64,000 nucleotides of DNA from Thermotoga caldifontis AZM44c09. GTDB taxonomy: Bacteria; Thermotogota; Thermotogae; Thermotogales; DSM-5069. The stretch's first letter is position 1. Each line of letters starts with the position of its first letter. The position numbers were made by a program, and so were the translations under genes. The notes under the pieces are model-generated. The model was given only the letters and a program-made list of their open reading frames with translations, did no database searches and was not told the origin of the DNA. This document shows, piece by piece, positions 21,222 to 63,581 of the stretch. Location of the stretch: assembly GCF_000828655.1 (NCBI RefSeq), contig NZ_AP014509.1:1178001-1242000 (forward strand), given 5' to 3'.

Positions 21222-22223
21222 TCACTGACCTCTGACTTCCTTGATCAGCTGTTCGAGTGCATCCATGATTCCAAGTTTTATGTAAGCTTGCTTGGCAGCT
21301 TCCATGAACGCGGCCTTGTCAACGTCGCTGATCACGGTAATACCTTTTTCGATGCATTTCTTTTTGTACTCTTCGCTGAGCTCCTTCATGATCTTCAGGG
21401 AAACTTCAATACCGGCTTTGTCGCATTCTTCCTCGATAATCTTTTGATATTCAGGTGGCAAGCTTCTGAACCATTTCGAACTGACGACTTCGAAGTTGAT
21501 CAGAAGTATGTGCCCCGTCTCAGATGCGTACTTGACGACTTCGTACAGAGAACCGTTGTAGACGTTAGCGTAAGTCAACTCTGCCCCATCACACGCTTTC
21601 GTTTGAATCGCTGTGTAGATCTCACCGAAGGCGATAGCAACGGGTTGTGCACCGAGTGCCCTGATGGATTCCTGCCAAGCGGGCGATGGAGGTGTTCTGA
21701 TCCTCAAACCACTCAGATCGGCAGGTTTCCTGACGGGTTTGTTCGTGAAGAAATGTCTGTAACCCTGGACCCAGAAGAAGGACAGGACCTTGAAGCCGTA
21801 CTTGTTTTCGAGTTCGTCGAGCCATTTCTTCATGGACGGCGATTGTTTAACTTTCTGAAGAGCTTCGATGACCTCTTCCGGAGTCTTCGCACCCATGAAG
21901 TCGATGAAGTAGGCAATGTTCATGACACCGATCGGTGGAACGTACATACCCATTCGCGCGGAGTCTGTGTTCTGGCCGATTGGTGCGCCAGCTCTGATCT
22001 GCTCTAGGATGTCCTCTTCTACACCGAGTTGAGCACTGTGGAACACTTCGATTTTAACATCCCCGTTCGTTCTCTCCTCGACCGCTTTCGCCCACTTCAA
22101 GAACGCTTGGTGGTACGGTTCTGTGGCTGCGAGAACGTGGTTGAATCTGAGCACATACTTCGGCGCGGCGAACAACGTTGCAAGGGCAACGGCAACAAAC
22201 GCAAGCACGAGGAACTTCCTCAC
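21222..22223 (-). CDS. dctP: TRAP transporter substrate-binding protein, DctP family
   Basis: 333 residues with an N-terminal signal peptide (MRKFLVLAFVAVALATLFAA). The mature protein has the DctP fold: YVLRFNHVLAATEPYH at the start, the RIRTPPSPAWQESIRALGA segment that carries the carboxylate-clamping Arg, and PVAIAFGEIYTAIQTKACDGAE. It is periplasmic and binds an organic acid through that Arg. First gene of the operon: promoter at 22293-22321 and GTG start behind AAGGGAGGGAG. Confidence 0.93.
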   Translation of the reverse strand: MRKFLVLAFVAVALATLFAAPKYVLRFNHVLAATEPYHQAFLKWAKAVEERTNGDVKIEVFHSAQLGVEEDILEQIRAGAPIGQNTDSARMGMYVPPIGVMNIAYFIDFMGAKTPEEVIEALQKVKQSPSMKKWLDELENKYGFKVLSFFWVQGYRHFFTNKPVRKPADLSGLRIRTPPSPAWQESIRALGAQPVAIAFGEIYTAIQTKACDGAELTYANVYNGSLYEVVKYASETGHILLINFEVVSSKWFRSLPPEYQKIIEEECDKAGIEVSLKIMKELSEEYKKKCIEKGITVISDVDKAAFMEAAKQAYIKLGIMDALEQLIKEVRGQ

Positions 22224-22263
22224 GGTTACTCCCTCCCTTTTGGAAAAATATTTTCACACATCT

Positions 22264-22277
22264 CACACGTTCGTGTG
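22264..22277. promoter_or_regulatory. Candidate operator in the dctP leader
   Basis: The perfect palindrome CACACGTTCGTGTG sits 15 bases downstream of the -10 of the dctP promoter, so it would overlap the start of the transcript. That is the expected place for a repressor site; the RpiR-type regulator in the operon is the natural candidate. Confidence 0.5.
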
Positions 22278-22292
22278 GGTTGTCAAAAAAAT

Positions 22293-22321
22293 TATATACG
22301 ATGGATTCGTCAAAGTGTCAA
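22293..22321 (-). promoter_or_regulatory. Sigma-A-type promoter of the TRAP operon
   Basis: On the minus strand, a perfect TTGACA, a 17-base spacer and TATATA (followed by AT), about 70 bases before the dctP start. Confidence 0.75.
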
Positions 22322-22393
22322 CGAGAAAATGACGGCCCATTCAAAAAGCTGGAACGTTGATTTCCACGCGTCAGGTGTGAGTTTCAAGCCTGG

Positions 22394-22422
22394 CCTTGAC
22401 ATCGCATGAGCCGCTGTCAAGG
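22394..22422. repeat. 8-bp inverted repeat upstream of the permease gene
   Basis: CCTTGACA, 13 bases, TGTCAAGG. It lies between the divergent dctP and permease genes. It could be a regulator site or part of a plus-strand promoter region. The plus-strand TTGACA inside it has no well-spaced -10. Confidence 0.4.
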
Positions 22423-22546
22423 TATGTTAACATTGCAGGATTGTTTCTGACGTCGTAGTGAAAGCGATGTGAAACGCGGCGCAAATTAGCATTCCAGAAA
22501 CTTGTTCCTGGTAAGATCGTGATGCGAGTCGTGAAGAGGATGACCT

Positions 22547-23887
22547 ATGGTTGATCTCGTAATCACTCTGAACATCTTTTTCGCCACGGTGTATGCAACG
22601 ATAAAGGAGCCGAAGATAAAGATAAAGAACGCAGTCATTTCGCTCGATCAAGCGAAATCTTCGTTGCTTGCCCTCATTCTCCTGATCGCCACAGGTGTGG
22701 TTCCACTCACCTTGATCAGAACCTCCCTCATGAAGCAGCTGAACATCGTGCCGTGGCAGATACTCGTGATCTTCTTTGGTTCAGCGTACATCTGTACCAG
22801 CCTGGACGCGTCTGGCCTGCTGAAAGTGATCGCTTACAAGTTTTTGTCGCTCAGCAAAGGTGATGGCAAGAAACTCTTCTTCAACACGATTCTGCTCGCA
22901 GGGATCATGACGATGTTCACATCCAACGACATAGTGACGTTGACGCTCACACCCATCATCGTCTACATGTCGCAGTATTCTGGTATGGACCCAATACCGT
23001 TGCTGATCAGTGTTTTCTTCACCTCGAACACGTGGAGCATGTTCTTCTACATAGGAAATCCAACGAACGTGATCGTTGCTCAGGCTTATTCGTTCAGCTT
23101 TTTTGAGTACGCCAGACTCATGTTCATCCCCACCATCGCGGCCATAGCAGCTTCACTGGTAGGCTTCTATGTTCAGTACAGAAAGAAGATCCCACAGCGT
23201 GTGGAAGCCAGACTCGAGCTCGATATAGACGAGGCTCTGAAAAGCAAGCTGTACGCCTGGCTTTCTGGTTTGACCTTCTGTGCTTTCTTCGTGACCGTGT
23301 CCATAGGAGATTTCATAGGTTTACCTCTGTGGAAGGCTGTCGTTCTGTACTGCGCGATCTACGCGCTGTTGAACCTCGCTTTTTCGGGCAAGATGTCGAA
23401 GGCGAATTTCGAAGACAGTCACAGCCTTTCTTTCTTCATCGATGTTTTCAAGAGAGTTCCTTGGAAGATTCTCCCCATGATCATAACTTTCTTCGTCTTC
23501 GTGCAGACCTTCTCCATGTACGGTCTCACAGATCTTGTTGGTAAGCTGTTCAATTTCAGGAACGACCTTCTCGTTTCTTTCTTCACCACGTACGTTACGG
23601 CTTTCGCCGCGAACATCATGATAAACCAGCCCATGACGATCTTCTTCGCTCACGCGCTCTGGCAGAAACCGATCAGCTACGCGTTGAGTTTGGTGGTCGG
23701 TTCGAACATCGGTGGGAACATAACTCTCATCGGAGCACTCGCCGGCATGATGTGGTCACGCATTCTCAAAAACTATGGTATAGAGATGAACAACGTCAGG
23801 TTTATCAAGAACACCTTCTTCGTCGCGATGCTGACGCTGATTGCGTCCAGCTTCGGAATCTGGATCTCCGTGAGGTTCCTTCACTGA
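22547..23887 (+). CDS. ArsB/NhaD-superfamily (ion transporter) permease
   Basis: 446 residues, about 11-12 membrane segments in two halves. SLDASGLLKVIA, TSNDIVTLTLTPI (the asparagine-rich re-entrant region) and TSNTWSMFFYIGNPTNVIVA, then SNIGGNITLIGALAGMMW in the second half, are characteristic of the ArsB/NhaD/CitM superfamily. Substrates in this group range from arsenite to sodium/proton exchange to carboxylates, and the sequence does not decide. No arsenic genes are nearby; the FGGY kinase follows 54 bases downstream. ATG start with GAGGATGA upstream. Confidence 0.82.
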   Translation: MVDLVITLNIFFATVYATIKEPKIKIKNAVISLDQAKSSLLALILLIATGVVPLTLIRTSLMKQLNIVPWQILVIFFGSAYICTSLDASGLLKVIAYKFLSLSKGDGKKLFFNTILLAGIMTMFTSNDIVTLTLTPIIVYMSQYSGMDPIPLLISVFFTSNTWSMFFYIGNPTNVIVAQAYSFSFFEYARLMFIPTIAAIAASLVGFYVQYRKKIPQRVEARLELDIDEALKSKLYAWLSGLTFCAFFVTVSIGDFIGLPLWKAVVLYCAIYALLNLAFSGKMSKANFEDSHSLSFFIDVFKRVPWKILPMIITFFVFVQTFSMYGLTDLVGKLFNFRNDLLVSFFTTYVTAFAANIMINQPMTIFFAHALWQKPISYALSLVVGSNIGGNITLIGALAGMMWSRILKNYGIEMNNVRFIKNTFFVAMLTLIASSFGIWISVRFLH

Positions 23888-23941
23888 GTCGCTGGTATCT
23901 CGTCTCAGTTGATGTAACATAAACCTGTGGAGGTGTCGCGA

Positions 23942-25384
23942 GTGGGACTGCACGTGGGAGTGGATATAGGCACGACGGCTGTGAAGGTCATCGTTTACGA
24001 TTCTGACGCGTTGAGAGTTCTGCTCGATGTGAGCGAATCTTACGATGTCTTCTCCGTTGGGCCTTCAATGTTCGAACAGGATCCTGTACAGATCGAAAAT
24101 GCGGTGTTCGAAGCGTTGAAAAAGGTTGGGGAGAAGTTCCCCCGCGTGGACAGCATCGTGCTCGACAGCATGTTGCATTCTCTTCTATTCCTCGATGAGG
24201 ATTATCGGCCCGCCAGCAACGTCGTTCCCTGGGTGGACGAAAGATCGATACCTCAGGTTCTTCAAGTGAAGAAGGACAGACAGCTCGTGAGGACCCTGCA
24301 GAACAGGGCGGGTTGTGCCGCCAACTTTGCCTATCCCATTTTCAAACTCATGTGGTTCGCACAGAATGAGCCTGAGAGGCTCAAAAAGGCTCACAAGATC
24401 GTCTCGATAAAAGACTACATGTTCTACAGATTGACCGGCACGCTGGCCAGCGACATCTCGGTGGCCTCCGGCACAGGGTTCATGGACATACGCACCAAGA
24501 CGTGGATGGCGGACTTGCTGAAAGAGCTGACAGGCGTGGGCGAAGACAAGTTAGTTGAACTCGTCCCGCCAACGTTCGCGAAGAAATTGACGAAAGAAGC
24601 AGGCGAAAGAACTAACCTTGCCAGTGGGACCGATGTGTTCATAGGCATCTCGGATGCAGCGGCCTCGAGCATAGGTTCAGGCGCGGGTATCGACGATTCG
24701 ATAACGATCTCCTCGAGCAGCAGCGCGGCGATCAGATCGATCGTGAGTGAGCCGCCAGAGCAGTACCCTTCACCCGGTGTGTGGTGCTACGTTGTGGACG
24801 AGAATTACTACATCGCCGGAGTTGCAACGAGTAACGGTGGTATCGTGTTCGACTGGTACGTGAAGCTCTTCTCAAAGTACGATCACGCCCAGATCATAAA
24901 ATTGATCGAAGAGAATTTCTACAACGTGGACGCTTCGCGAGCCGTGCTCTTTTATCCTTTCGTTTTCAGTGAGAGATTCCCTGAGCTGGATCCAAGCCTG
25001 AGCGCGAGGTTTCTGAACCTCCGCGGCGATACCACCGACTGGATGGTGGCACGAAGCGTTTTGGAGGGCATCATCTTCAACTTGAAGAGGATCTTCGATG
25101 TGGTGAAAGTTGTACCCAGAAAACTCGAAAACGTCTATTCGACGGGTGGACTGACGAGGGCGGACGTGTGGACGAAGATGCTTTCCAGCGTTATCAACGA
25201 AAAGATCATCGTACAGAGTAAGAGACAAGGTACAGCTCTGGGAACGGTATGGCACCATCTTGGAGAAGATCACAGAAAGAGAGCCATGGAAGCTTTGAAA
25301 AACGAACTTGAAGTTTACGAACCCGATCAGAGGTTGGTACCCTATTATCAGAAACTGTACGAAGCCTGGCTGGAGAAGCTCTGA
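23942..25384 (+). CDS. FGGY-family carbohydrate kinase, gluconokinase-like
   Basis: About 480 residues, full FGGY length. N-terminal phosphate loop GVDIGTTAVKVIVYD, the substrate region LDSMLHSLLFLDED, SIKDYMFYRLTGTLASD, and the C-terminal nucleotide part STGGLTRADVWTKMLSSV. The DSMLHS segment resembles gluconokinases, which phosphorylate D-gluconate with ATP. With the neighbouring TRAP importer, SDR and 2-hydroxyacid dehydrogenase this fits sugar-acid catabolism. Start GTG 23942 is chosen because GGAGGTG ends 6 bases upstream; the frame is open to 23927. Xylulose or another sugar remains possible. Confidence 0.85.
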   Translation: MGLHVGVDIGTTAVKVIVYDSDALRVLLDVSESYDVFSVGPSMFEQDPVQIENAVFEALKKVGEKFPRVDSIVLDSMLHSLLFLDEDYRPASNVVPWVDERSIPQVLQVKKDRQLVRTLQNRAGCAANFAYPIFKLMWFAQNEPERLKKAHKIVSIKDYMFYRLTGTLASDISVASGTGFMDIRTKTWMADLLKELTGVGEDKLVELVPPTFAKKLTKEAGERTNLASGTDVFIGISDAAASSIGSGAGIDDSITISSSSSAAIRSIVSEPPEQYPSPGVWCYVVDENYYIAGVATSNGGIVFDWYVKLFSKYDHAQIIKLIEENFYNVDASRAVLFYPFVFSERFPELDPSLSARFLNLRGDTTDWMVARSVLEGIIFNLKRIFDVVKVVPRKLENVYSTGGLTRADVWTKMLSSVINEKIIVQSKRQGTALGTVWHHLGEDHRKRAMEALKNELEVYEPDQRLVPYYQKLYEAWLEKL

Positions 25385-25388
25385 AGAA

Positions 25389-27116
25389 TCATGAAGCGAA
25401 CTGAATCTGATACAGCTGGTAGTACACTCCCTGTTTCGCCAAAAGCTGGGCGTGTTTTCCCTCTTCGACTATCCTGCCGTTGTGCACTACCAGTATTCTG
25501 TCGGCGTTCTTCACGGTCGAGAGCCTGTGGGCGATCATGATCATCGTCTTTTCCTTCGCGAGTTCTCTTATGGCTGTCTCGATCCGCGTTTCCGTTTCGA
25601 CATCTATGTTGCTGGTAGCCTCGTCGAGGATCAGTATCTTCGCATCGAACAGCACCGCACGAGCAAGGGCTATGAGCTGTCTCTCGCCGGCAGAGAGCGT
25701 GTAACCTCGCTCCACGATCTTGGTGTAGATTCCATCACTCAGGCGGGACACTATGTCGTACGCGTGGACTTTCTTCAGCGCTTCGATCACCTGCTCCTCG
25801 GTGTAGGTTTCGTCGAACAGTCTCACGTTGTCGAGGATTGTTCCTGTGAAGAGTATCACGTCCTGTGGGACTGCAGCTATCTGTTTTCTGATCTTCATCA
25901 GATCGTATTCGAACATGTCCTTACCGTCTATGAGGATCCGACCCTTCTGGGGTACGTACAGACCGTTGATGAGGTTCATCAGAGACGTTTTTCCTGCCCC
26001 GGTCTCGCCCACGATGGCGGTCAGCTCTCCAGGTCTGAAAACGACGTTGATGCCTTTCAGCACCCACCTGTCGGAATCGTAGCTGAACCACACGTCTTCG
26101 AACCTCAGTTCGCCTTTCTCGATCTTGAGCTGGCTGTTCGTTTTTCCAGCCGGTTCGGGCTTTTCATCCATGAGCGAGAAGATCTTCTCGCACGAAGCAA
26201 CCGTGTTCTGTACGATGTCGTACTTCTCTGAGATGTCTTCCAGAGGCCTCATGAACGTGTCTATGTAAGCTATGAATGCGTACAGCTCTCCAAACTTTAT
26301 GGTCTCCTGCAGTATCATTCTGGCGCCGAAGTAGATGATCACGCTCGTGGCCAGGTGCCTTACGAAGCTTATGAACGGTCTGAAGATTCCGAACACGTAC
26401 ATCTGTTTGATCTGCGATCTGTATAGCTCTGAACTCACCGAGTCGAACTCTTTTCTCTTGTAGTCTTCGGCGAGGAAGAGTTTTATCACACCCATTCCAC
26501 TGATGTGTTCCGCAAGGTAGGCGTTCACTTTGGCCAGGTTGGTACGAACCTCTCTGTAGACCTTCAGATCGAAGTATCTGAACAGGACCATCGCGGCCGC
26601 TATGATGGGAAAAACGAAGCTGGTCGTGGCGAAAAGTTTCGGGCTCAGTCGAATCAAGAAATATATCGTACCAGCCAGGAGGAACACGTCCTTCACCATC
26701 GCCGTTATGACGCTGGTGAAGAACTCCTGGATGTTCTGCGTGTCGTTCACGATCCTCGTCGTGATCCTTCCTGAGGGATTTCTGTCGAAGAACGACATGG
26801 GAAGACTTAAAACTTTTCTGAAGAGCTCCGTGCGCACATCGTGGACGATCCTGTTGCCCAGATACGACGTGATGAAAGTGCTGAGATAACCGAAGAGGAA
26901 CTGCGCTGCGAAGACGGCAAGCACTACCAGACTGAATCTGTAGATTCCGTTCAACCGTTCAGCAACTGGTAAGGTTTCGTTGTTCAAATAACTGTCTATG
27001 ATCGTTCTGATCAGCTGTGGTGGCAAAAGGTCCACTATGGCCGAAGCCAGGACGATCAGTATCGCCAGGACGAAGAACAGGGTATACGGTTTGGCGTATT
27101 TGAGCAATCTGTTCAA
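25389..27116 (-). CDS. ABC exporter half-transporter (membrane + ATPase fused)
   Basis: About 575 residues: six membrane helices (about 1-310) followed by an ATPase domain with Walker A GETGAGKTS, signature LSAGERQLIAL, Walker B ILILDEATS and the H-loop IAHRLST. This is the MsbA/LmrA type, acting as a dimer to export lipids, drugs or peptides; the substrate is unknown. No second half-transporter is adjacent, so a homodimer is likely unless its partner is elsewhere. Start TTG 27116 is favoured by GGGGTGGT four bases upstream; a GTG at 27143 is also in frame. Confidence 0.9.
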   Translation of the reverse strand: MNRLLKYAKPYTLFFVLAILIVLASAIVDLLPPQLIRTIIDSYLNNETLPVAERLNGIYRFSLVVLAVFAAQFLFGYLSTFITSYLGNRIVHDVRTELFRKVLSLPMSFFDRNPSGRITTRIVNDTQNIQEFFTSVITAMVKDVFLLAGTIYFLIRLSPKLFATTSFVFPIIAAAMVLFRYFDLKVYREVRTNLAKVNAYLAEHISGMGVIKLFLAEDYKRKEFDSVSSELYRSQIKQMYVFGIFRPFISFVRHLATSVIIYFGARMILQETIKFGELYAFIAYIDTFMRPLEDISEKYDIVQNTVASCEKIFSLMDEKPEPAGKTNSQLKIEKGELRFEDVWFSYDSDRWVLKGINVVFRPGELTAIVGETGAGKTSLMNLINGLYVPQKGRILIDGKDMFEYDLMKIRKQIAAVPQDVILFTGTILDNVRLFDETYTEEQVIEALKKVHAYDIVSRLSDGIYTKIVERGYTLSAGERQLIALARAVLFDAKILILDEATSNIDVETETRIETAIRELAKEKTMIMIAHRLSTVKNADRILVVHNGRIVEEGKHAQLLAKQGVYYQLYQIQFAS

Positions 27117-27154
27117 GGTGACCACCCCAAAAGTTAGTTCCACGAATTATTTTA

Positions 27155-27973
27155 TCACTCCATCTCGAGTTTGAAAAACCTGGTTCTGTTGAACTGATCT
27201 TTAAAAAAGCTGAGCTTTCCAAGGTTCTGAAGCAATTCTCTCAGACCACTTTCCTGTTCCGGTGACATCTCCATGATTATGGTCTTTCCTCTGAGCAGAG
27301 AAGGAACGGAGAAAAAGTTTCTGTAGAAATCGAGACCGTCCTCGCCCGCGAAGAGTGCCTCCGAGGGTTCTTTCTGAACATCGGCGGGAAGTTGCGCGAG
27401 GGAGGAAACGTACGGTGGGTTGGAGACGATCAACTGCACACGGTCCAGAAAATGTAAGAGTGGCTCGAGGTACGGACCTTTCAGAAGCCCTATCTGAACT
27501 TGGTACTTCTCGGCGTTCTTTTTTGCAACCTGGAGAGCTTTTTCACTGATGTCGGTTGCGAAGACCTCACACTGCGAATTCAGAGCGATTGCTATAGCGA
27601 TGCAGCCGGTTCCGGTGCCGACGTCTGCAACCAGCTCGATATTCTTTTCCTCGATCACTTGCAAAGATAAGTCCACCAGAACCTCTGTCTCCATTCTCGG
27701 AATGAATACTCCTTCACACACGTACAGTTCCAGACCGTAGAAATAGCATTTTTCCGTGATGTACTGAAGAGGATAGCCACTCGCACGTTTTCGCGCCAGC
27801 GAAACGGCGAGCTGACACTGCGCTTCGGAAACTTCTTCTTCGAAATCCATCAACAGGCCTTCACGACTTCTGCCTGTAACTTTGCTCAATATAGAAAGAG
27901 CCTCCGAACCGCTCGATTCGGAGGCTTCCTTGAGAATATCTTTGATCTTTGTGTAGAGATCTCTGAGCTTCAT
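27155..27973 (-). CDS. prmC: Release factor glutamine N5-methyltransferase
   Basis: 272 residues, normal PrmC/HemK length. N-terminal helical domain, then RKRASGYPLQYITEKCYFYG, the PRMETEVLVD segment, the SAM loop VADVGTGTGCIAIAIA and the catalytic NPPYVSS. It methylates the GGQ glutamine of peptide release factors with SAM. Overlaps the DUF59 gene start by 4 bases. Confidence 0.95.
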   Translation of the reverse strand: MKLRDLYTKIKDILKEASESSGSEALSILSKVTGRSREGLLMDFEEEVSEAQCQLAVSLARKRASGYPLQYITEKCYFYGLELYVCEGVFIPRMETEVLVDLSLQVIEEKNIELVADVGTGTGCIAIAIALNSQCEVFATDISEKALQVAKKNAEKYQVQIGLLKGPYLEPLLHFLDRVQLIVSNPPYVSSLAQLPADVQKEPSEALFAGEDGLDFYRNFFSVPSLLRGKTIIMEMSPEQESGLRELLQNLGKLSFFKDQFNRTRFFKLEME

Positions 27974-56245: not shown

Positions 56246-57211
56246 GTGAGAAAAGTATTCATCGCTGTGATCGTTGTGGTCGCGGTTGCACTTTTCGCAC
56301 TCGATTTGAGACAGTTCAGCATCAAAGATTTCAAGGGTGAATATCCTCTGGTCAGTTTGAAAAGGTTTCTCGAAACGGAAGAGTTCGTATCCGTCGAAGG
56401 TGTTGTCTACAACGTGAAGGCAGACAAGAAATTTCTCACTGTGGAAGAAGCGAGCACGCTCAATTTGAGCGAAGACAGACTCGTGGGAATACTCGCGATC
56501 GATATCGATGAACTTTCCGGCTTCGATGGGAAGAACAAACCTGCTCTGGTGGCGGTGAACGGCATCATCTACGATGTTTCGAACTCTAACCTCTGGCGCG
56601 GTGGCGTGCACCGTGGACGACACAGCGCCGGCGAAGAGTTGACCTACGATATCGTGAAAGATTCTCCTCACGGGATTCGAAAGCTTCAGGGTTTCAGAAC
56701 TTACGGTGTACTCGTTTTCACACTCGAACAGCTCTCGAAGTTCGCCCAGGACACGAAAGCGAAACCTTACGTGGCGTTCTCAGGGGTCGTGTACGATGTG
56801 AAGGATAGCCCTGCGTACAACGGCAGGAACAGAACGTTCCATTCTTTTCCGGTGGGTCAGGAGTTGACCTACGAGCTGAGCAGAGTCGAAAACGTTCAGG
56901 CCAGTCTGTCTAAGAGTTTTCCCGTTGGTCTTCTGATTTTCGATGCGCAGACGCTTTCCAGGTTCGACGGCACACAAGTGAGAGTGTTCAATGAAGAAAC
57001 GTACAAATCTTTCATCATGGTCGCGGGGATCGTTTACGATGTGACCAATGTCCCAGATTGGCGTGCGGAGCTGAAGTTGGAAGACGATGCCCAGGCGGGA
57101 AAAGACTACACGGGTCAGTTCGAGTGTGAACTTGAAGGATCCTGCGAGCACGAACATGCAGATCCAATGGTCTTGAGAGAGTTTCTCCGCGTGGGATTTG
57201 GTACGCTGTGA
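56246..57211 (+). CDS. Secreted protein with about four tandem cytochrome-b5-like domains
   Basis: 321 residues. N-terminal signal/anchor (residues 5-18). Four repeats each carry a core like (F/Y)VAV-x-G-(V/I)-(V/I)-YDV: residues 47-57 (truncated), 100-111, 175-185 and 256-266. Repeat 2 is complete for the cytochrome-b5-like fold (DELSGFDG, LWRGGVHRGRHSAGEELT, PHG), with His122 and His126 as possible haem ligands. Repeats 3 and 4 lose most histidines, but repeat 4 ends in a Cys/His cluster (C294, C300, H302, H304). Starts GTG behind AGGAGGTGA. The stop overlaps the next gene by 4 bases. Haem binding is inferred, not shown. Confidence 0.78.
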   Translation: MRKVFIAVIVVVAVALFALDLRQFSIKDFKGEYPLVSLKRFLETEEFVSVEGVVYNVKADKKFLTVEEASTLNLSEDRLVGILAIDIDELSGFDGKNKPALVAVNGIIYDVSNSNLWRGGVHRGRHSAGEELTYDIVKDSPHGIRKLQGFRTYGVLVFTLEQLSKFAQDTKAKPYVAFSGVVYDVKDSPAYNGRNRTFHSFPVGQELTYELSRVENVQASLSKSFPVGLLIFDAQTLSRFDGTQVRVFNEETYKSFIMVAGIVYDVTNVPDWRAELKLEDDAQAGKDYTGQFECELEGSCEHEHADPMVLREFLRVGFGTL

Positions 57212-57570
57212 GCTACAAGATCTTTGCCTGGATCAGCGTAGCGTTGCTGTTCTACAATTTTTCTCTCTTCCCGCTGAGGAGAATACTCAAGAGGTTCGAA
57301 CGCGCCCGCTCTTTCTTGAAGATCGGATCCAGAATTCACAGATTCAGCGGTTTCGCGTTGCTCGTCACCGGTGCGATACATGGCTATCTGGCGCTTGGAC
57401 GGATCCAGCTTCACACCGGAACACTTCTGTGGCTCGGCGTGGTCCTGCTCTTCATCTACTATTTGCTGAGAAGGCCTTTGAAAAAGCGCTGGCTGGTTCT
57501 TCACAGATTCACGGATTTCATCGTGATCGCCTGGTTTTTCGTTCACTTCTTCTTTCCGTGGTTGATATAG
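57208..57570 (+). CDS. Four-helix membrane protein with diheme-b histidine spacing
   Basis: 120 residues, four predicted membrane helices (about 5-21, 46-64, 70-88, 101-119). Helix 2 has His44 and His58, helix 4 has His99 and His113; each pair is 14 apart, the pattern that ligates two b hemes in ferric-reductase/NarI/bc1-type cytochromes. A fifth His (69) is in the loop. So it is probably a minimal membrane cytochrome b that passes electrons between the cytoplasm or quinol pool and the secreted b5-like partner. No flavin or NAD domain is attached. GTG start coupled to the upstream stop. Confidence 0.72.
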   Translation: MSYKIFAWISVALLFYNFSLFPLRRILKRFERARSFLKIGSRIHRFSGFALLVTGAIHGYLALGRIQLHTGTLLWLGVVLLFIYYLLRRPLKKRWLVLHRFTDFIVIAWFFVHFFFPWLI

Positions 57571-57581
57571 GAGGTGAAGGT

Positions 57582-58034
57582 ATGCTGTCGATCGGATCTG
57601 TGGCACCCGATTTCAGTTTGAAAGATCAACACGGAAACACGGTACAACTTTCGAATTTGAAGGGCAAAAAGGTGCTTCTGTCTTTTCACCCACTCGCGTG
57701 GACGAGTGTGTGCTCGGAGCAGATGAAATCGCTCGAAGCGGCATACGATCAGTTCGAAGCTCTGAACGTTCTGCCGTTGGGTGTGAGCGTCGATCCCGTT
57801 CCCAGCAAGAAGGCCTGGGCCGAGGCGCTGGGACTGAAGAAGTTGCTCATACTCTCAGACTTCTGGCCCCACGGGGAAGTAGCCAAAGCCTTCGGTATAT
57901 TCAGAGAACGGGACGGTTTTTCCGAGAGGGCGAACGTACTCATCGACGAACAGGGTAAGGTTGTCTGGGTCAAGGTGTATCCAATCAAGCAGTTACCCGA
58001 TACCCACGAGATCTTGGATTTTCTGAAAGCCTGA
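57582..58034 (+). CDS. Peroxiredoxin, single-cysteine AhpE/BCP-like
   Basis: 150 residues from ATG 57582 (GGAGGTGAA just upstream); the open frame to 57198 is a shadow. AhpC/TSA fold: SVAPDFSLKDQHG and FHPLAWTSVCSEQM, with the only Cys as the peroxidatic residue and Thr retained nearby. No resolving Cys, so it needs an external thiol or other donor. Follows the membrane cytochrome by 11 bases and ends at the terminator, so it belongs to this operon. No signal peptide: it acts inside. Confidence 0.88.
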   Translation: MLSIGSVAPDFSLKDQHGNTVQLSNLKGKKVLLSFHPLAWTSVCSEQMKSLEAAYDQFEALNVLPLGVSVDPVPSKKAWAEALGLKKLLILSDFWPHGEVAKAFGIFRERDGFSERANVLIDEQGKVVWVKVYPIKQLPDTHEILDFLKA

Positions 58035-58079: not shown

Positions 58080-58118
58080 TGCGGTCCAGGGTCATTTTCT
58101 GGACCGCATGATTTTTTT
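58080..58118 (+). terminator. Terminator of the b5-like/peroxiredoxin operon
   Basis: 10-bp stem TGCGGTCCAG / CTGGACCGCA followed by TGATTTTTTT. The stem overlaps the last codons of the convergent phoU. Confidence 0.92.
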
Positions 58119-58775
58119 CAACTGCTCTCCGGTCTGCATGAAGTAAAGCTTTTCGCAGATGTTCGTCAGATGGTCCGCGATCCTCTCGAGGTGTCTTATC
58201 AGGAAAGCTTCTTCGAGGTAGATCCTCATCATCCTCGGGTTCGTTTCACGACACGCCAATTCGATGAGATTCTCGTGGCCTTCGTTGTGCAGTCTGTCGA
58301 CATCGTCATCTTTCTGCCAGGCCTTGATCGCGAGTTCGAGATCTCTATTCTTCACGGCTTCAACCGTCTGCTGCAACATCGTGTTTATGATCCTGACCAT
58401 GTCGTTGAGAGTTTCCCAACTTGTGAAACTTTCCAGGCTCCTTTGGACGTGTCTGCTGAGCTGGGCAATGTTGACACACTCGTCCGCGATCCTTTCCAGA
58501 TCTATCGAAAGACCTATCATCGCGACGACAAACCTGAGGTCTTCTGCCAGTGGCTGGTATTTTGCGATCACGTCGAACGCGGTGGACTGGATGGTCAGAT
58601 CGAGTTCGTCGAAGTAATCGTCCATCTCCTCTATTTCTCTTATGGTCTTCTCGTCGCTGGACTGAACCGCGTACAGAGTTTTCTCGAAAAGTTCCTCCAC
58701 TCCGTTCACGAATTCCATCAACTTCGCGTTCAGGAAGTTCATCTCTCTTTCGTAGTGCAGGGTTCTTTCCGTCAT
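58092..58775 (-). CDS. phoU: Phosphate uptake regulator PhoU
   Basis: 227 residues, two three-helix repeats. The metal-binding motifs EIEEMDDYFDELD and IADECVN, then HEGHENL-like and LERIADHLTNICE, are typical. PhoU links the Pst transporter to the PhoR-type kinase and keeps the regulon off when phosphate is ample. Last gene of the pst operon. Confidence 0.94.
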   Translation of the reverse strand: MTERTLHYEREMNFLNAKLMEFVNGVEELFEKTLYAVQSSDEKTIREIEEMDDYFDELDLTIQSTAFDVIAKYQPLAEDLRFVVAMIGLSIDLERIADECVNIAQLSRHVQRSLESFTSWETLNDMVRIINTMLQQTVEAVKNRDLELAIKAWQKDDDVDRLHNEGHENLIELACRETNPRMMRIYLEEAFLIRHLERIADHLTNICEKLYFMQTGEQLKKIMRSRK

Positions 58776-58787
58776 GACACTTCCTCC

Positions 58788-59543
58788 TCAACCTATTTTA
58801 CCTGTCAGGAACTGTCTGGTCACCTCGTGTTTCGGTGTTTTGGCGATGACGGATGTGTCGCCATATTCTATCAGCTTTCCTTCGTAGAGGAACACGACTT
58901 CGTCGCTGATCCTCAAAGCCTGTCCCATACTGTGCGTGACTATGACCACAGTGTACTGTTCGGCGAGCTCTTCAAGCAGTCTTTCGATCTTCGTAGTGGC
59001 GATCGGATCGAGTGCGCTCGTGGGCTCGTCAAGGAGCAACACTTCAGGTTCAACCGCCAGAGCCCTCGCGATGCACAGTCTTTGCTGCTGGCCTCCGGAA
59101 AGTTGTACCGCAGGCTTTTTGAGCTTGTCCTTCACTTCGTCCCACAGCGCGGCCTTTCTCAGCGCTTCTTCAACCTTCTCTCTCAGCACACTCTTCTTCG
59201 TGATTCCGTGTATTCTGAGCCCGTACGCGACGTTGTCGAAGATGGACATCGGGAAAGGGTTGGGTTTTTGAAAGACCATGGTCACCCTTCTTCTGTATTC
59301 TGTCAGATCGGAGATGCGGTATATGTCCTGTCCCCGAAACAGGATCTGTCCCTTCAGGGAGAAATCGGGAATCAGATCGTTGAGTCTGTTCAGGCATCTG
59401 AGCAGTGTGCTTTTACCACAGCCGGACGGTCCCATGATCGCGGTTATTCGTTTAGATCTTATCTTCAGGTTTATGTCGTTCAAAACGCAATGATCTCCGT
59501 AGTAAGCGTAAAGGTTCTTGATCTCAAAAACGACGTCACTCAC
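58788..59543 (-). CDS. pstB: Phosphate ABC transporter ATP-binding protein
   Basis: 251 residues. Walker A GPSGCGKST, signature LSGGQQQRLCIARAL, Walker B VLLLDEPTSALDP, H-loop VTHSM. NRLNDLIPDFSLKGQI is PstB-specific. Energises PstCA. Overlaps the pstA stop by 8 bases. Confidence 0.97.
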   Translation of the reverse strand: MSDVVFEIKNLYAYYGDHCVLNDINLKIRSKRITAIMGPSGCGKSTLLRCLNRLNDLIPDFSLKGQILFRGQDIYRISDLTEYRRRVTMVFQKPNPFPMSIFDNVAYGLRIHGITKKSVLREKVEEALRKAALWDEVKDKLKKPAVQLSGGQQQRLCIARALAVEPEVLLLDEPTSALDPIATTKIERLLEELAEQYTVVIVTHSMGQALRISDEVVFLYEGKLIEYGDTSVIAKTPKHEVTRQFLTGKIG

Positions 59544-60339
59544 GTTGATTCCTCCTCATCAGCTGAACGAGGAAATACACACCGATCGTGATCAGCACCA
59601 TCAAACTCGCCATACCTTTCGCCATCCACTGAGACTCCTCTCCAAGGTTCATGACGATCGCGTAGATGCTTGTGGGAAGCGTCATGACCGGATCTGTTAA
59701 TCTAACAGGAAGCTTCGTCGTGTAGAAGACAGCCCCGGTGACCAAGATGGGTGCAGTCTCACTGAAGGCTCTACCGAGTGTGAGGATCAAACTCGTCAGC
59801 ACACCGTTTCTGCTCGCCCGGAGAACCATCAGGGTGGCTTGGAGTTTACTTGCACCGAGCGCTATCACGCCTTCTCTCAGTTCCTTCGGTACTGCCCTGA
59901 GAAATTCCACCGCGCTGTTCATGAAGAAAGGTATCGACATGGTTGAAAGTGTCAGCGATGCGGAGATCAGAGAAGTACCCATCGAGAGTCTCACGCAGAA
60001 GAAAGAAAGCCCAAAGACACCGTAGACGATCGAGGGAACGCTGTTCATCGTGGCCGCAAGGGATTGAAGAACCATGGACAGCTTCCTGGGTGCTATCTCG
60101 CTCAAGAATATGGTTCCAATCAATCCGACGGGGATCGAAACCGCGAACACAAGCGCCATGAGCATGAGCGAACCGATCAACATCGGAAAGATTCCGCCTT
60201 CGCTCATCGCGCGTCTGGGCCACTCTGTGAAGAAACCGGGTCTGAAAAAGTGCGGAAGACCCGACACAACTATGATCGCGAGTGTGAGTACCATGATCGC
60301 GAAAACGGCGTAGGTGATGATCCTGAGAGTCCATCGCAA
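59536..60339 (-). CDS. pstA: Phosphate ABC transporter permease PstA
   Basis: About 267 residues, six helices, LREGVIALGASKLQATLMVL as the EAA loop, and SVPSIVYGVFGL. TTG 60339 is preferred as start because AAGGGGTGAT from the end of pstC sits four bases upstream; a start at 60360 would overlap pstC. Confidence 0.94.
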   Translation of the reverse strand: MRWTLRIITYAVFAIMVLTLAIIVVSGLPHFFRPGFFTEWPRRAMSEGGIFPMLIGSLMLMALVFAVSIPVGLIGTIFLSEIAPRKLSMVLQSLAATMNSVPSIVYGVFGLSFFCVRLSMGTSLISASLTLSTMSIPFFMNSAVEFLRAVPKELREGVIALGASKLQATLMVLRASRNGVLTSLILTLGRAFSETAPILVTGAVFYTTKLPVRLTDPVMTLPTSIYAIVMNLGEESQWMAKGMASLMVLITIGVYFLVQLMRRNQRE

Positions 60340-60344
60340 GGCTA

Positions 60345-61217
60345 TCACCCCTTGACCCATCGTTCGAGCCTTCTACAGATCACGTTGGTGAGAATGTTGA
60401 GAATTAGACAACCCGAGAGCACCAACAGTGCGATGAAGAACAGAGCGCTGTAGTGAAGACTTCCCACGGCAACTTCGCCGATCTCGCTACCCAAGGTCGC
60501 GGTGAGCGGTCTTATTGGATCGAAAAACGATCTCACCAACACGTTGGCGCCGCCTGCAACCATGAGCACTATCATCGTCTCACCGAAAATTCTGTTGAAA
60601 ACACTCAGCATCGCGTTCACTATGCCTGGTGCGGCGTATTTGAGTTCGACCAGCAGTACGTGGATATCTTTCGCACCGAGTGCCACCGCTCCATCCACGA
60701 TGTGGCTCGGAACCTTCTCGATCGATTGGAACGTCAGGCTCGTCATGAAGGGTAACGTCAGAATTGACAGTACGATCGAAGCGTTCAAAAAATTCTGCGC
60801 GGTCCATGCCCCAGCCCTTAAGAAGAGATCGCCCAGAATCAGAACACCGAAGAGTCCGAACACTACGGACGGAACGCCACTCACATATTCCAAGATTCTG
60901 AGTACGACCTGTTTCTCTCTGTCGCGCGCGTATTTGTGCAGATAAAGTGCCACAGCCAAACCAACGATCCATACCCAGACGCTCGTCCAGACAGTCAAGA
61001 TCAGCGAGTTCAGCAACATCGTCCTGACACCAAACTCCGGTTCAAGTTCCCAGACCGGATACCAGTTGGGCGAAAACAGCCCCCACCCAACCTCTCTGAT
61101 GGCCCTGAGCGATTCTGAGAATATGAAGAATACTATCGCAAAAAGAGCCGCCGCTACGAGAACGGCAGCCACACTGGTGAAAAGAACGAACATGAACGAT
61201 GCGACTCTTTTCATCAT
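60345..61217 (-). CDS. pstC: Phosphate ABC transporter permease PstC
   Basis: 290 residues, six helices; SGVPSVVFGLFGVLILG and VDGAVALGAKDIHVLLVELK carry the Pst permease and EAA motifs. Partner of PstA. ATG start overlapping the pstS stop by 4 bases. Confidence 0.95.
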   Translation of the reverse strand: MMKRVASFMFVLFTSVAAVLVAAALFAIVFFIFSESLRAIREVGWGLFSPNWYPVWELEPEFGVRTMLLNSLILTVWTSVWVWIVGLAVALYLHKYARDREKQVVLRILEYVSGVPSVVFGLFGVLILGDLFLRAGAWTAQNFLNASIVLSILTLPFMTSLTFQSIEKVPSHIVDGAVALGAKDIHVLLVELKYAAPGIVNAMLSVFNRIFGETMIVLMVAGGANVLVRSFFDPIRPLTATLGSEIGEVAVGSLHYSALFFIALLVLSGCLILNILTNVICRRLERWVKG

Positions 61218-62050
61218 TCACCCGTTCCGTACGCCGGAACGAACCCAGCCTGTCTGACTATGCTCTGACCTTTCGGTGAGACGATGAACCTTAAGTAATC
61301 GCTCACGATGCCTTCCATCGGCCAGCTGTTGTTGAATCGGCTCAGATCGATGAACACGAACAGAGGCCTGCTGATCGGATAGGTCCCTTTGATGACGTTC
61401 TGAATGCTCGGTTCGACACCGTTCACTTTGAGTGCTTTCACTTTGTCCGTCACGTAACCCATACCTGTGTAAGCTATGGCGTACGGATTCTTTGCGACGC
61501 TCTCGATTTCCGCCTGGCTCGATTCGAGCATCTGCACCCTTGGACTGAGCTTGGCACCGTGGAGAACCTTTTCTACCCAGGTTTCGAAGGTTCCACTCGC
61601 GGTGTTTCTCGAATAGACGACGATCGTTCTTTTGGGAAGTTTTGGATCGACCTGGTTCCATTCCGTGATCTCGCCGGTGTAGATCTTCTTCAGCGTTTCG
61701 ATGGATATGTCGTCGATCGGCAGACTTGGATGCACGATCACGGACAGCGCGTCGTAGGCAACGAGTATGGGAACGAAGTATCTACCGGCTTTGTGCATTT
61801 CCTCGATCTCGGACGGTTTGAGGAACCTGCTGGAGTTCGCGATGTCTGTCGTTTCGTTGAAGAGCGCCTTGATACCCGTGGTGGAACCGGCACCCTCGAG
61901 CGTGACGGTCAGATTGGGATACATCTTCTGAAACTCCTCGACCCAAAGCTGTGCGATGGGATAAACCGTGTTCGAACCCTTGATCACGAGGGTTTGTCCG
62001 TACACCACCAGTGCGGTGAAGACCAACACAAGCAAGAAGACTTTCTTCAC
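61214..62050 (-). CDS. pstS: Phosphate-binding protein PstS
   Basis: 278 residues. Signal peptide MKKVFLLVLVFTALVVYG without a lipobox, so free in the periplasm. IKGSNTVYPIAQLWVEEF and GAGSTTGIKALFNETTDIANSSR (split: GAGSTTGIKAL, TDIANSSR) and RNTASGTFETW are phosphate-binding loops. Highest-affinity step of phosphate uptake; first gene of the operon. Confidence 0.95.
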   Translation of the reverse strand: MKKVFLLVLVFTALVVYGQTLVIKGSNTVYPIAQLWVEEFQKMYPNLTVTLEGAGSTTGIKALFNETTDIANSSRFLKPSEIEEMHKAGRYFVPILVAYDALSVIVHPSLPIDDISIETLKKIYTGEITEWNQVDPKLPKRTIVVYSRNTASGTFETWVEKVLHGAKLSPRVQMLESSQAEIESVAKNPYAIAYTGMGYVTDKVKALKVNGVEPSIQNVIKGTYPISRPLFVFIDLSRFNNSWPMEGIVSDYLRFIVSPKGQSIVRQAGFVPAYGTGE

Positions 62051-62173: not shown

Positions 62174-62824
62174 GTGGCGCGCGTGCTGGTTGTGGAAGAT
62201 GAGGAAGACATACTGGACGTGGTGAGTAAGTATCTGATGATGGATTCGCACGAAGTTCGAACGGCGAAAACTCTTCAGGAGATGTACGAAGAAATAGAAA
62301 AAGGTTGCTTCGATGTGATCGTGCTCGATCTACTTTTACCGGACGGAGACGCGATGGACGAAATCCCCTCGATCAAGTTGGTCTGCCCGGAAACGTTCAT
62401 AATCGTGCTGACGGCGCTACGCGAAGACAGAAACAAGATACTCGGCCTGGAGCTGGGTGCAGATGATTACATGACGAAGCCGTTCAACCCGAGAGAACTC
62501 GTGGCCAGAGTCAGGGCGGTTCTGCGGCGTCGCGGCAGCTACGAGAAAGTACTCGCTCACAAGGACATGAAGCTGATCTTGCATGAAAGGACTCTGTTGG
62601 TGAACGATGAGGTCGTAGAGCTTTCTGGCAAAGAATTCGATATAATGCTCCTTTTCTTTGAAAATCCGAAGAAGGTGTTCACAAGGTCGGAGATACTGGA
62701 CAGAGTCTGGCGCGGTTCTGAACGGAACGAACGCATAGTCGATGTTTACATCAGTACACTCAGAAAGAAGATCGGGAAAGAAAGGCTGGTGACCGTAAGG
62801 GGTGTCGGTTACAAACTGGGATGA
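62174..62824 (+). CDS. OmpR/PhoB-family response regulator
   Basis: 216 residues: receiver domain with VVEDEED, phospho-accepting Asp in VIVLDLLLP, and MTKPFNP; then a winged helix (LSGKEFDIMLLFF, VYISTLRKKIG, TVRGVGYKLG). Placement next to pstSCAB-phoU makes it the PhoB/PhoP-like activator of phosphate-starvation genes. GTG start behind AGGAGGG. Confidence 0.92.
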   Translation: MARVLVVEDEEDILDVVSKYLMMDSHEVRTAKTLQEMYEEIEKGCFDVIVLDLLLPDGDAMDEIPSIKLVCPETFIIVLTALREDRNKILGLELGADDYMTKPFNPRELVARVRAVLRRRGSYEKVLAHKDMKLILHERTLLVNDEVVELSGKEFDIMLLFFENPKKVFTRSEILDRVWRGSERNERIVDVYISTLRKKIGKERLVTVRGVGYKLG

Positions 62825-63581
62825 ACTGGTTCAGAGATACAGGCCCGTTCTCCTCATCACACCCAGAAGTTTGATCTTCTACCCTTCCTCAGGCGATCCC
62901 TCCAGTGAAAAGCAGGTGCTCTCAGATTCAAAGGTATTCTTCGTGAACGCGGTTGCCCACGAGCTGTTTTCACCGCTCAGCGCAGCTATAGGGCTTTTGG
63001 AGCTCGCCAAAGAGGGGGAAATGGTGCAGGAGCATTTGCTCAAAATAGAAAAACATTTGCTGAGAATGCACCGCATCCTCGAGCAGCTCATATTGCTCTC
63101 GAAGATCGAGCAAGACAATTACGAGCCATTCTTGAGAAAGATCGATCTGGAAGGAATTTTGAGGGAGATAGTCCACGAGTACGAACAGAGAGCGGCACAG
63201 AAAAGAGTCGCCATTTCGATGGAAGGAACGAACGTGAGGGTTGAAGCCGATGAGGAAGCGTTGAAAATAGTGTTGAGGAACCTGGTTTCCAACGCGGTGA
63301 AGTATTCAAAAGAGGGAGGTATCGTTAAGATCACGAGATCGAACCGATTGCTCGTGATTCAGGATGAGGGACTCGGCATACCCGAACAGGAATTGAAGAA
63401 CGTCACGGCTCGTTTCTACAGGGCAAAGAACGTCAGGGGAGTTTCCGGAGCCGGTCTTGGTCTCGCGATTGTCAAGCATATTCTCAGAAGATTGAACGTC
63501 ACGTGGGCCATACATTCGCGCCTAAACGTTGGAACTACCGTTTTCCTGGAACTGGTTGGCGTGGAAGAAGACAACCTGTGA
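62802..63581 (+). CDS. Soluble PhoR-like histidine kinase without membrane segment
   Basis: 259 residues with HisKA (VAHELFSPLSAAIGLLEL, phospho-His) and HATPase (NLVSNAVKYS, DEGLGIP, GAGLGLAIVK). There is no membrane helix or sensor domain; the first 35 residues are of unclear nature. The GTG start overlaps the regulator by 23 bases. An ATG at 62821 overlapping the stop opens a different frame that soon ends. Likely senses phosphate via PhoU/Pst. Confidence 0.88.
   Translation: MSVTNWDELVQRYRPVLLITPRSLIFYPSSGDPSSEKQVLSDSKVFFVNAVAHELFSPLSAAIGLLELAKEGEMVQEHLLKIEKHLLRMHRILEQLILLSKIEQDNYEPFLRKIDLEGILREIVHEYEQRAAQKRVAISMEGTNVRVEADEEALKIVLRNLVSNAVKYSKEGGIVKITRSNRLLVIQDEGLGIPEQELKNVTARFYRAKNVRGVSGAGLGLAIVKHILRRLNVTWAIHSRLNVGTTVFLELVGVEEDNL

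Follow-up and report, generated by a model that had tools for sequence, protein, structure and literature searches.

A candidate minimal dihaem b-type membrane cytochrome and its exported haem-type partners in Thermotogota

Thermotogota are usually regarded as fermenters without cytochromes. What, then, is the function of a very short membrane protein with two equally spaced pairs of histidines that is encoded in Thermotoga caldifontis AZM44c09? The gene lies in the window analysed here, a stretch of 64,000 nucleotides (contig NZ_AP014509.1, positions 1,178,001 to 1,242,000), and coordinates given without a locus name are positions in this window. We propose, with a probability of about 0.72, that the gene encodes a minimal dihaem b-type membrane cytochrome, which would pass electrons to an exported haem protein of b type independently of quinones. 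The gene has the coordinates and the length given to it in the first-pass annotation, with a GTG start at 57208 and a TAG stop at 57568-57570, and the mass of its product is 14.5 kDa.

57208-57570, plus strand: candidate dihaem b-type cytochrome, a four-helix membrane protein of 120 amino acids (open reading frame, homologues, AlphaFold2 model, dN/dS)

Compared with its nearest relative (90% protein identity) the gene shows a dN/dS of 0.13, and thus the reading frame codes for a protein and is under purifying selection. Histidine occurs at residues 44, 58, 69, 99 and 113, and both H44/H58 and H99/H113 are separated by a step of 14 (H-x13-H). Two disjoint pairs with this step arise in about 0.3% of shuffles of a protein with five histidines in 120 residues, and the conservation of the pairs among homologues is stronger evidence than this figure of chance spacing. 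Homologues were searched for in 45 genomes of the order and then, with an 18-row profile, in 103 Thermotogota genomes, and were found in 43 of the 103 genomes and 14 of the 38 genera. The 43 copies comprise 39 that are intact and full-length, three that are broken, and one (G099) cut by a contig end. Both histidine pairs are present in 39/39 of the intact copies at identities down to about 32%, so the loss of the four histidines, which the first-pass annotation named as the result that would overturn its reading, is absent. In a 30-row alignment L14, H44, G48, H58, G71, W95, H99 and H113 are invariant; the near-invariant residues besides the four histidines are G48, G59, G71, W95 and R24, and His69 is not conserved. 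When the single protein was used as query against genome contigs, the sole match was one Pseudothermotoga metagenome-assembled genome, and a plasmid search with the candidate cytochrome gave no match.

The three broken copies decayed independently. One has a frameshift just before H44 (G002), one a deletion at H58 (G009), and the third has lost helices 1-2 (G015) and, already broken, carries Asn in place of H99, the sole ligand substitution seen. The membrane cytochrome is dispensable, because its copies are broken in three species; the b5 gene described below is still open in all three genomes despite the broken membrane cytochrome.

L101:5380-5765, plus strand: broken membrane-cytochrome copy
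L100:4640-5005, minus strand: broken membrane-cytochrome copy in a second species
L108:5600-5990, minus strand: broken membrane-cytochrome copy in a third species

AlphaFold2, supplied with 18 homologues, models four helices at residues 2-27, 31-63, 70-86 and 88-115 (mean pLDDT 92, pTM 0.81), and the 14-residue pairs fall on helices 2 and 4 just as had been noticed on the first pass. Also in line with that reading, neither the family scan nor the model contains a flavin or NAD domain. Mean net charge is +7.2 in loop 1 (between helices 1 and 2) and +4.4 in loop 3 (between helices 3 and 4), and is near 0 at the N-terminus, in loop 2 and at the C-terminus. Under the positive-inside rule, both termini would therefore lie outside and the histidine pairs would reach opposite faces of the membrane; this charge pattern puts H44/H99 at the predicted cytoplasmic face and H58/H113 at the predicted outer face.

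57337-57339, plus strand: His44 codon, cytoplasmic side of helix 2, predicted to bind the inner haem together with His99, invariant in both alignments
57379-57381, plus strand: His58 codon, outer side of helix 2, predicted to bind the outer haem together with His113, invariant in both alignments
57502-57504, plus strand: His99 codon, helix 4, cytoplasmic side, invariant in intact copies
57544-57546, plus strand: His113 codon, helix 4, outer side, invariant in both alignments

The five best PDB fold matches found with Foldseek are all of the NOX family (probability up to 0.93, TM-score up to 0.61), at E-values above 0.5 that are not significant. Since unrelated viral proteins score similarly, we treat the fold match as supportive only and do not use it as proof.

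The candidate cytochrome overlaps a gene upstream for an exported protein. The first-pass annotation mentioned neither this gene, nor the replacement of b5 by DOMON, nor the lack of a haem pathway, both of which are described below.

56246-57211, plus strand: protein of 321 amino acids, exported or N-terminally anchored, with repeated cytochrome b5-type domains (PF00173, 6nzx/6vz6, AlphaFold2, co-occurrence)
56507-56713, plus strand: sole b5 repeat with haem-ligand histidines (H122/H126, H142), aligned to 6nzx
57208-57211, plus strand: GTGA, 4 nt shared by the b5 gene (stop TGA) and the membrane-protein gene (start GTG), read from sequence

The overlap points to translational coupling of the two genes. 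The N-terminus of the upstream protein is hydrophobic and has no lipobox. PF00173 is recognized with 43.9 bits against a cut-off of 23.7 (E 2.5e-11), and repeat 2 matches the sequence of the Hadesarchaea cytochrome b5 6nzx with an E-value of 6e-11. The AlphaFold2 model (pLDDT 86) matches the fold of the same structure (E 8.8e-7), one repeat being 43% identical with an rmsd of 1.5. Four b5 repeats are discernible, and in this species repeat 2 alone keeps both ligand histidine positions; H122, H126 and H142 are invariant in 15 homologues, and most relatives of the protein keep ligand histidines in two repeats. By its PF00173 score, its b5 fold and its bis-histidine ligands the protein belongs to the cytochrome b5 family. 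Archaeal single-domain cytochromes b5 (6nzx from Hadesarchaea, 6vz6 from Methanococcoides) match it by both sequence and fold, whereas here several repeats, most of the others without ligands, are joined in an exported protein beside a membrane cytochrome. Separately, the C-terminal end of the b5 protein has a Cys-x5-Cys-x-His-x-His motif (Cys294, Cys300, His302, His304; 57125-57157), which could be a metal site; it is conserved in most of the T. caldifontis family and missing in Fervidobacterium-like homologues (Fervidobacterium-like, Petrotoga-like and Mesotoga-like are genus labels guessed from the size and gene content of the genomes).

The two genes also tend to occur together across the phylum. 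Among the 103 genomes 34 have both the membrane cytochrome and b5, nine the cytochrome only, six b5 only and 54 neither (Fisher P about 5e-13, a value inflated by shared ancestry). In four of the 34 genomes b5 was assigned by protein search and not by the Pfam profile; profile-only assignment leaves 30 genomes with both (P about 3e-10). The nine cytochrome genomes without detected b5 include one (G051) with a b5-like fragment at a contig edge, six with no detected partner, and two (G082 and G090) in which a DOMON-domain protein directly follows the membrane cytochrome gene.

L090:1548-2087, plus strand: DOMON protein after the membrane cytochrome
L089:5023-5568, plus strand: DOMON protein after the membrane cytochrome in the other genome

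DOMON domains include carriers of haem b, and besides these two genomes no DOMON protein was found among the 103. Because b5 is replaced in the same slot by an unrelated DOMON protein, there is a strong hint that the job of the membrane protein is to exchange electrons with an exported haem-type partner. Alternatively, the four histidines might bind metal ions or serve structure, and the protein would be a haem-free membrane anchor for b5. A protein without significant family match, encoded in genomes that cannot make haem, would suit such a role. However, two 14-step pairs kept so exactly are the pattern of haem ligands and not of a metal site, and there are copies that are not adjacent to the b5 gene (G007 and the Mesotoga-like genomes) or that have DOMON instead; we regard an anchor of this kind as very improbable.

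If the relay carries haem, where does the haem come from? Ferrochelatase was detected by family search in 0/103 Thermotogota genomes (8/14 controls positive), and HemC (porphobilinogen deaminase) in 4/103, T. caldifontis not among them (11/14 controls positive). AhbD of the sirohaem route gave nothing above cut-off in the 103 genomes; the matches to it across the phylum were general radical-SAM matches and were set aside. Thermotoga is also listed with an incomplete haem pathway in a review (PMC10740692). With the genes for its synthesis missing, haem, if carried, would have to come from outside, and is probably scavenged there. The conserved pair of genes is thus found in a phylum that apparently cannot produce the cofactor of the system. 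As a side observation, in G059, a genome without the membrane cytochrome, HemC lies near two AhbC/AhbD-like radical-SAM genes (contig C56, about 21700-27400), and this organism may be able to produce haem through the sirohaem route.

The same absence of haem biosynthesis raises another explanation, in which an uptake route is needed and the system is that route: the exported b5 and DOMON proteins, both haem-type folds, would capture haem, and the membrane protein would move haem, not electrons, inward. Against this, the position of the 14-step pairs at opposite faces agrees with the fixed bis-histidine dihaem sites of cytochromes known to transfer electrons (PMC11564096), the neighbours examined include no recognized ATPase or haem-transport gene, and about 60% of the genomes have no cytochrome system. 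We therefore consider haem import by this pair unlikely. Petrotoga-like genomes have ABC genes near the locus, but these make up a glycine-betaine (OpuAC) set and were therefore rejected as haem transporters.

The gene neighbourhood bears both on the electron donor and on a possible role in defence against oxidants. Immediately downstream in T. caldifontis is a peroxiredoxin gene.

57582-58034, plus strand: AhpC/TSA-type peroxiredoxin, 11 nt downstream of the membrane gene (PF00578, E 3.7e-35)

It is probably on the same transcript as the membrane cytochrome in this species. Given this neighbour, the cytochrome and b5 might reduce O2, superoxide or peroxide at the outer face of the membrane, in the manner of NOX or superoxide oxidase, together with the peroxiredoxin. 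The fold of the small protein resembles NOX cores, and the small dihaem b561 protein CybB is a superoxide oxidase (PMC7096707). But the peroxiredoxin, which has no recognized export signal, adjoins the membrane cytochrome only in T. caldifontis and one close relative (G004), and the neighbours in other lineages are Rnf genes, Nfn-like genes or unrelated ones. Adjacency in two genomes only led us to set the peroxiredoxin aside as a functional partner, and oxidant defence appears to us quite unlikely. Further downstream in the window, PhoU and phosphate ABC-transport genes (58092-62050, minus strand) together with a response regulator and a histidine kinase (62174-63581, plus strand) form an ordinary phosphate-starvation cluster.

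Elsewhere the locus adjoins genes of electron metabolism. In several Fervidobacterium-like genomes it lies next to an Rnf cluster, and in G008, G009 and G010, of the T. caldifontis family, next to a gene pair of which the first has Fe-S and NAD-binding domains such as an Nfn-type transhydrogenase would have, and the name Nfn-like is our reading of these domains.

L094:2-3542, minus strand: Rnf neighbours, Fervidobacterium-like
L096:1840-4082, minus strand: Nfn-like neighbours, T. caldifontis family

These lineage-specific neighbours are a hint of a donor linked to ferredoxin or NAD(P)H. No menaquinone pathway has been identified in Thermotogae (PMC3914697), which argues against a quinol donor.

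In the electron relay that we favour, H44/H99 would hold one haem near the cytoplasmic face and H58/H113 a second near the outer face. Electrons would be supplied by a reductant in the cytoplasm, probably one based on a flavoprotein, on NAD(P)H or on ferredoxin, such a donor being favoured because no menaquinone pathway is known in the phylum. They would then cross the membrane by hopping from one haem to the other and be handed to the exported b5-type protein of the overlapping upstream gene, which in turn would carry them to an extracytoplasmic acceptor. We offer a broader proposal more tentatively and at somewhat less than even odds, namely that these proteins form an undescribed four-helix dihaem family that is the electron outlet of haem-auxotrophic, quinone-lacking Thermotogota to interchangeable b5 or DOMON proteins, all working on scavenged haem. 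If this is true, Thermotogota gain a route to extracytoplasmic acceptors and at the same time rely on haem from their neighbours or surroundings.

How does the candidate relate to known cytochromes? The protein has no significant match in Pfam, NCBIfam and PHROG scans, and profiles built from 18 and from 30 homologues matched no PDB sequence. The kinship with DUF, cytochrome b561 or ferric-reductase families that had been anticipated is thus not seen in any curated match of the protein itself, and survives as sub-cut-off scores of some relatives: Ferric_reduct at an E-value of 5.5e-4 (PF01794; best member 20.4 bits, gathering cut-off 28), DUF4405 at 3.5e-5 (PF14358; best 24.7 bits, in the L086 copy, cut-off 26.7), and b561 at 2e-3 (PF01292; best 17.3 bits among members scored singly, cut-off 30.1), T. 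caldifontis matching neither PF01794 nor PF14358. All three families consist of membrane cytochromes of b type. On the tests run, the protein appears to be related to these three families and a member of none. Similarly, of the dihaem b cytochromes named as likenesses in the first-pass annotation, the ferric-reductase/NOX core is, with DUF4405, the closest, if weakly, and bc1 and NarI drop out, as neither bc1/b6f cytochrome b nor NarI gave a Pfam or PDB sequence match.

The FRD superfamily (NOX, FRE, MsrQ/YedZ and STEAP; PF01794) shares a four-helix core with two histidine pairs on alternate helices, and pairs on helices one helix apart are found in 39/39 intact copies here. Both have H-x13-H on the first ligand helix, and inner and outer bis-histidine haem sites, predicted in the present case. 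The haem core of SpNOX consists of TM2-5; TM3 carries H69/H83 and TM5 carries H129/H142, and the inner haem is bound by H69/H129, the outer one by H83/H142 (PMC11564096). The predicted orientation and histidine layout of the 120-residue protein are those of SpNOX TM2-TM5. The differences are that FRD proteins have six transmembrane helices in place of the four modelled here, that the second pair has a step of 13 in FRD and 14 here, and that a flavin/NAD domain is lacking here. In addition, the inner-haem histidines are gone from most of the short FRD proteins of bacteria (PMC3591440), whereas this protein keeps all four. DUF4405 proteins (PF14358), one of which was purified with haem b, are likewise small membrane proteins with four central histidines, but the one studied has six helices and occurs with flavinylated proteins and apbE (PMC11334425), as opposed to four helices and b5 or DOMON partners. 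Near the candidate locus an RnfG-type FMN_bind gene is found only in Fervidobacterium-like genomes. The b561/CybB proteins (PF01292) hold dihaem b in a helix bundle, as proposed for the 120-residue protein. Eukaryotic b561 can be fused to a DOMON domain, and such DOMON-b561 proteins resemble the partner arrangement in G082 and G090. CybB is larger: its 11.1 kDa per haem is the figure for the smallest of the dihaem b cytochromes with solved structures surveyed in 2019 (PMC7096707), and the present protein, if it binds two haems, would have 7.2 kDa per haem. The first-pass suggestion that it would be among the smallest of its kind is hence reasonable when compared with structurally known cytochromes, and as a very small natural dihaem scaffold, which we predict it to be, it could serve to test how minimal a protein can be for a transmembrane haem wire.
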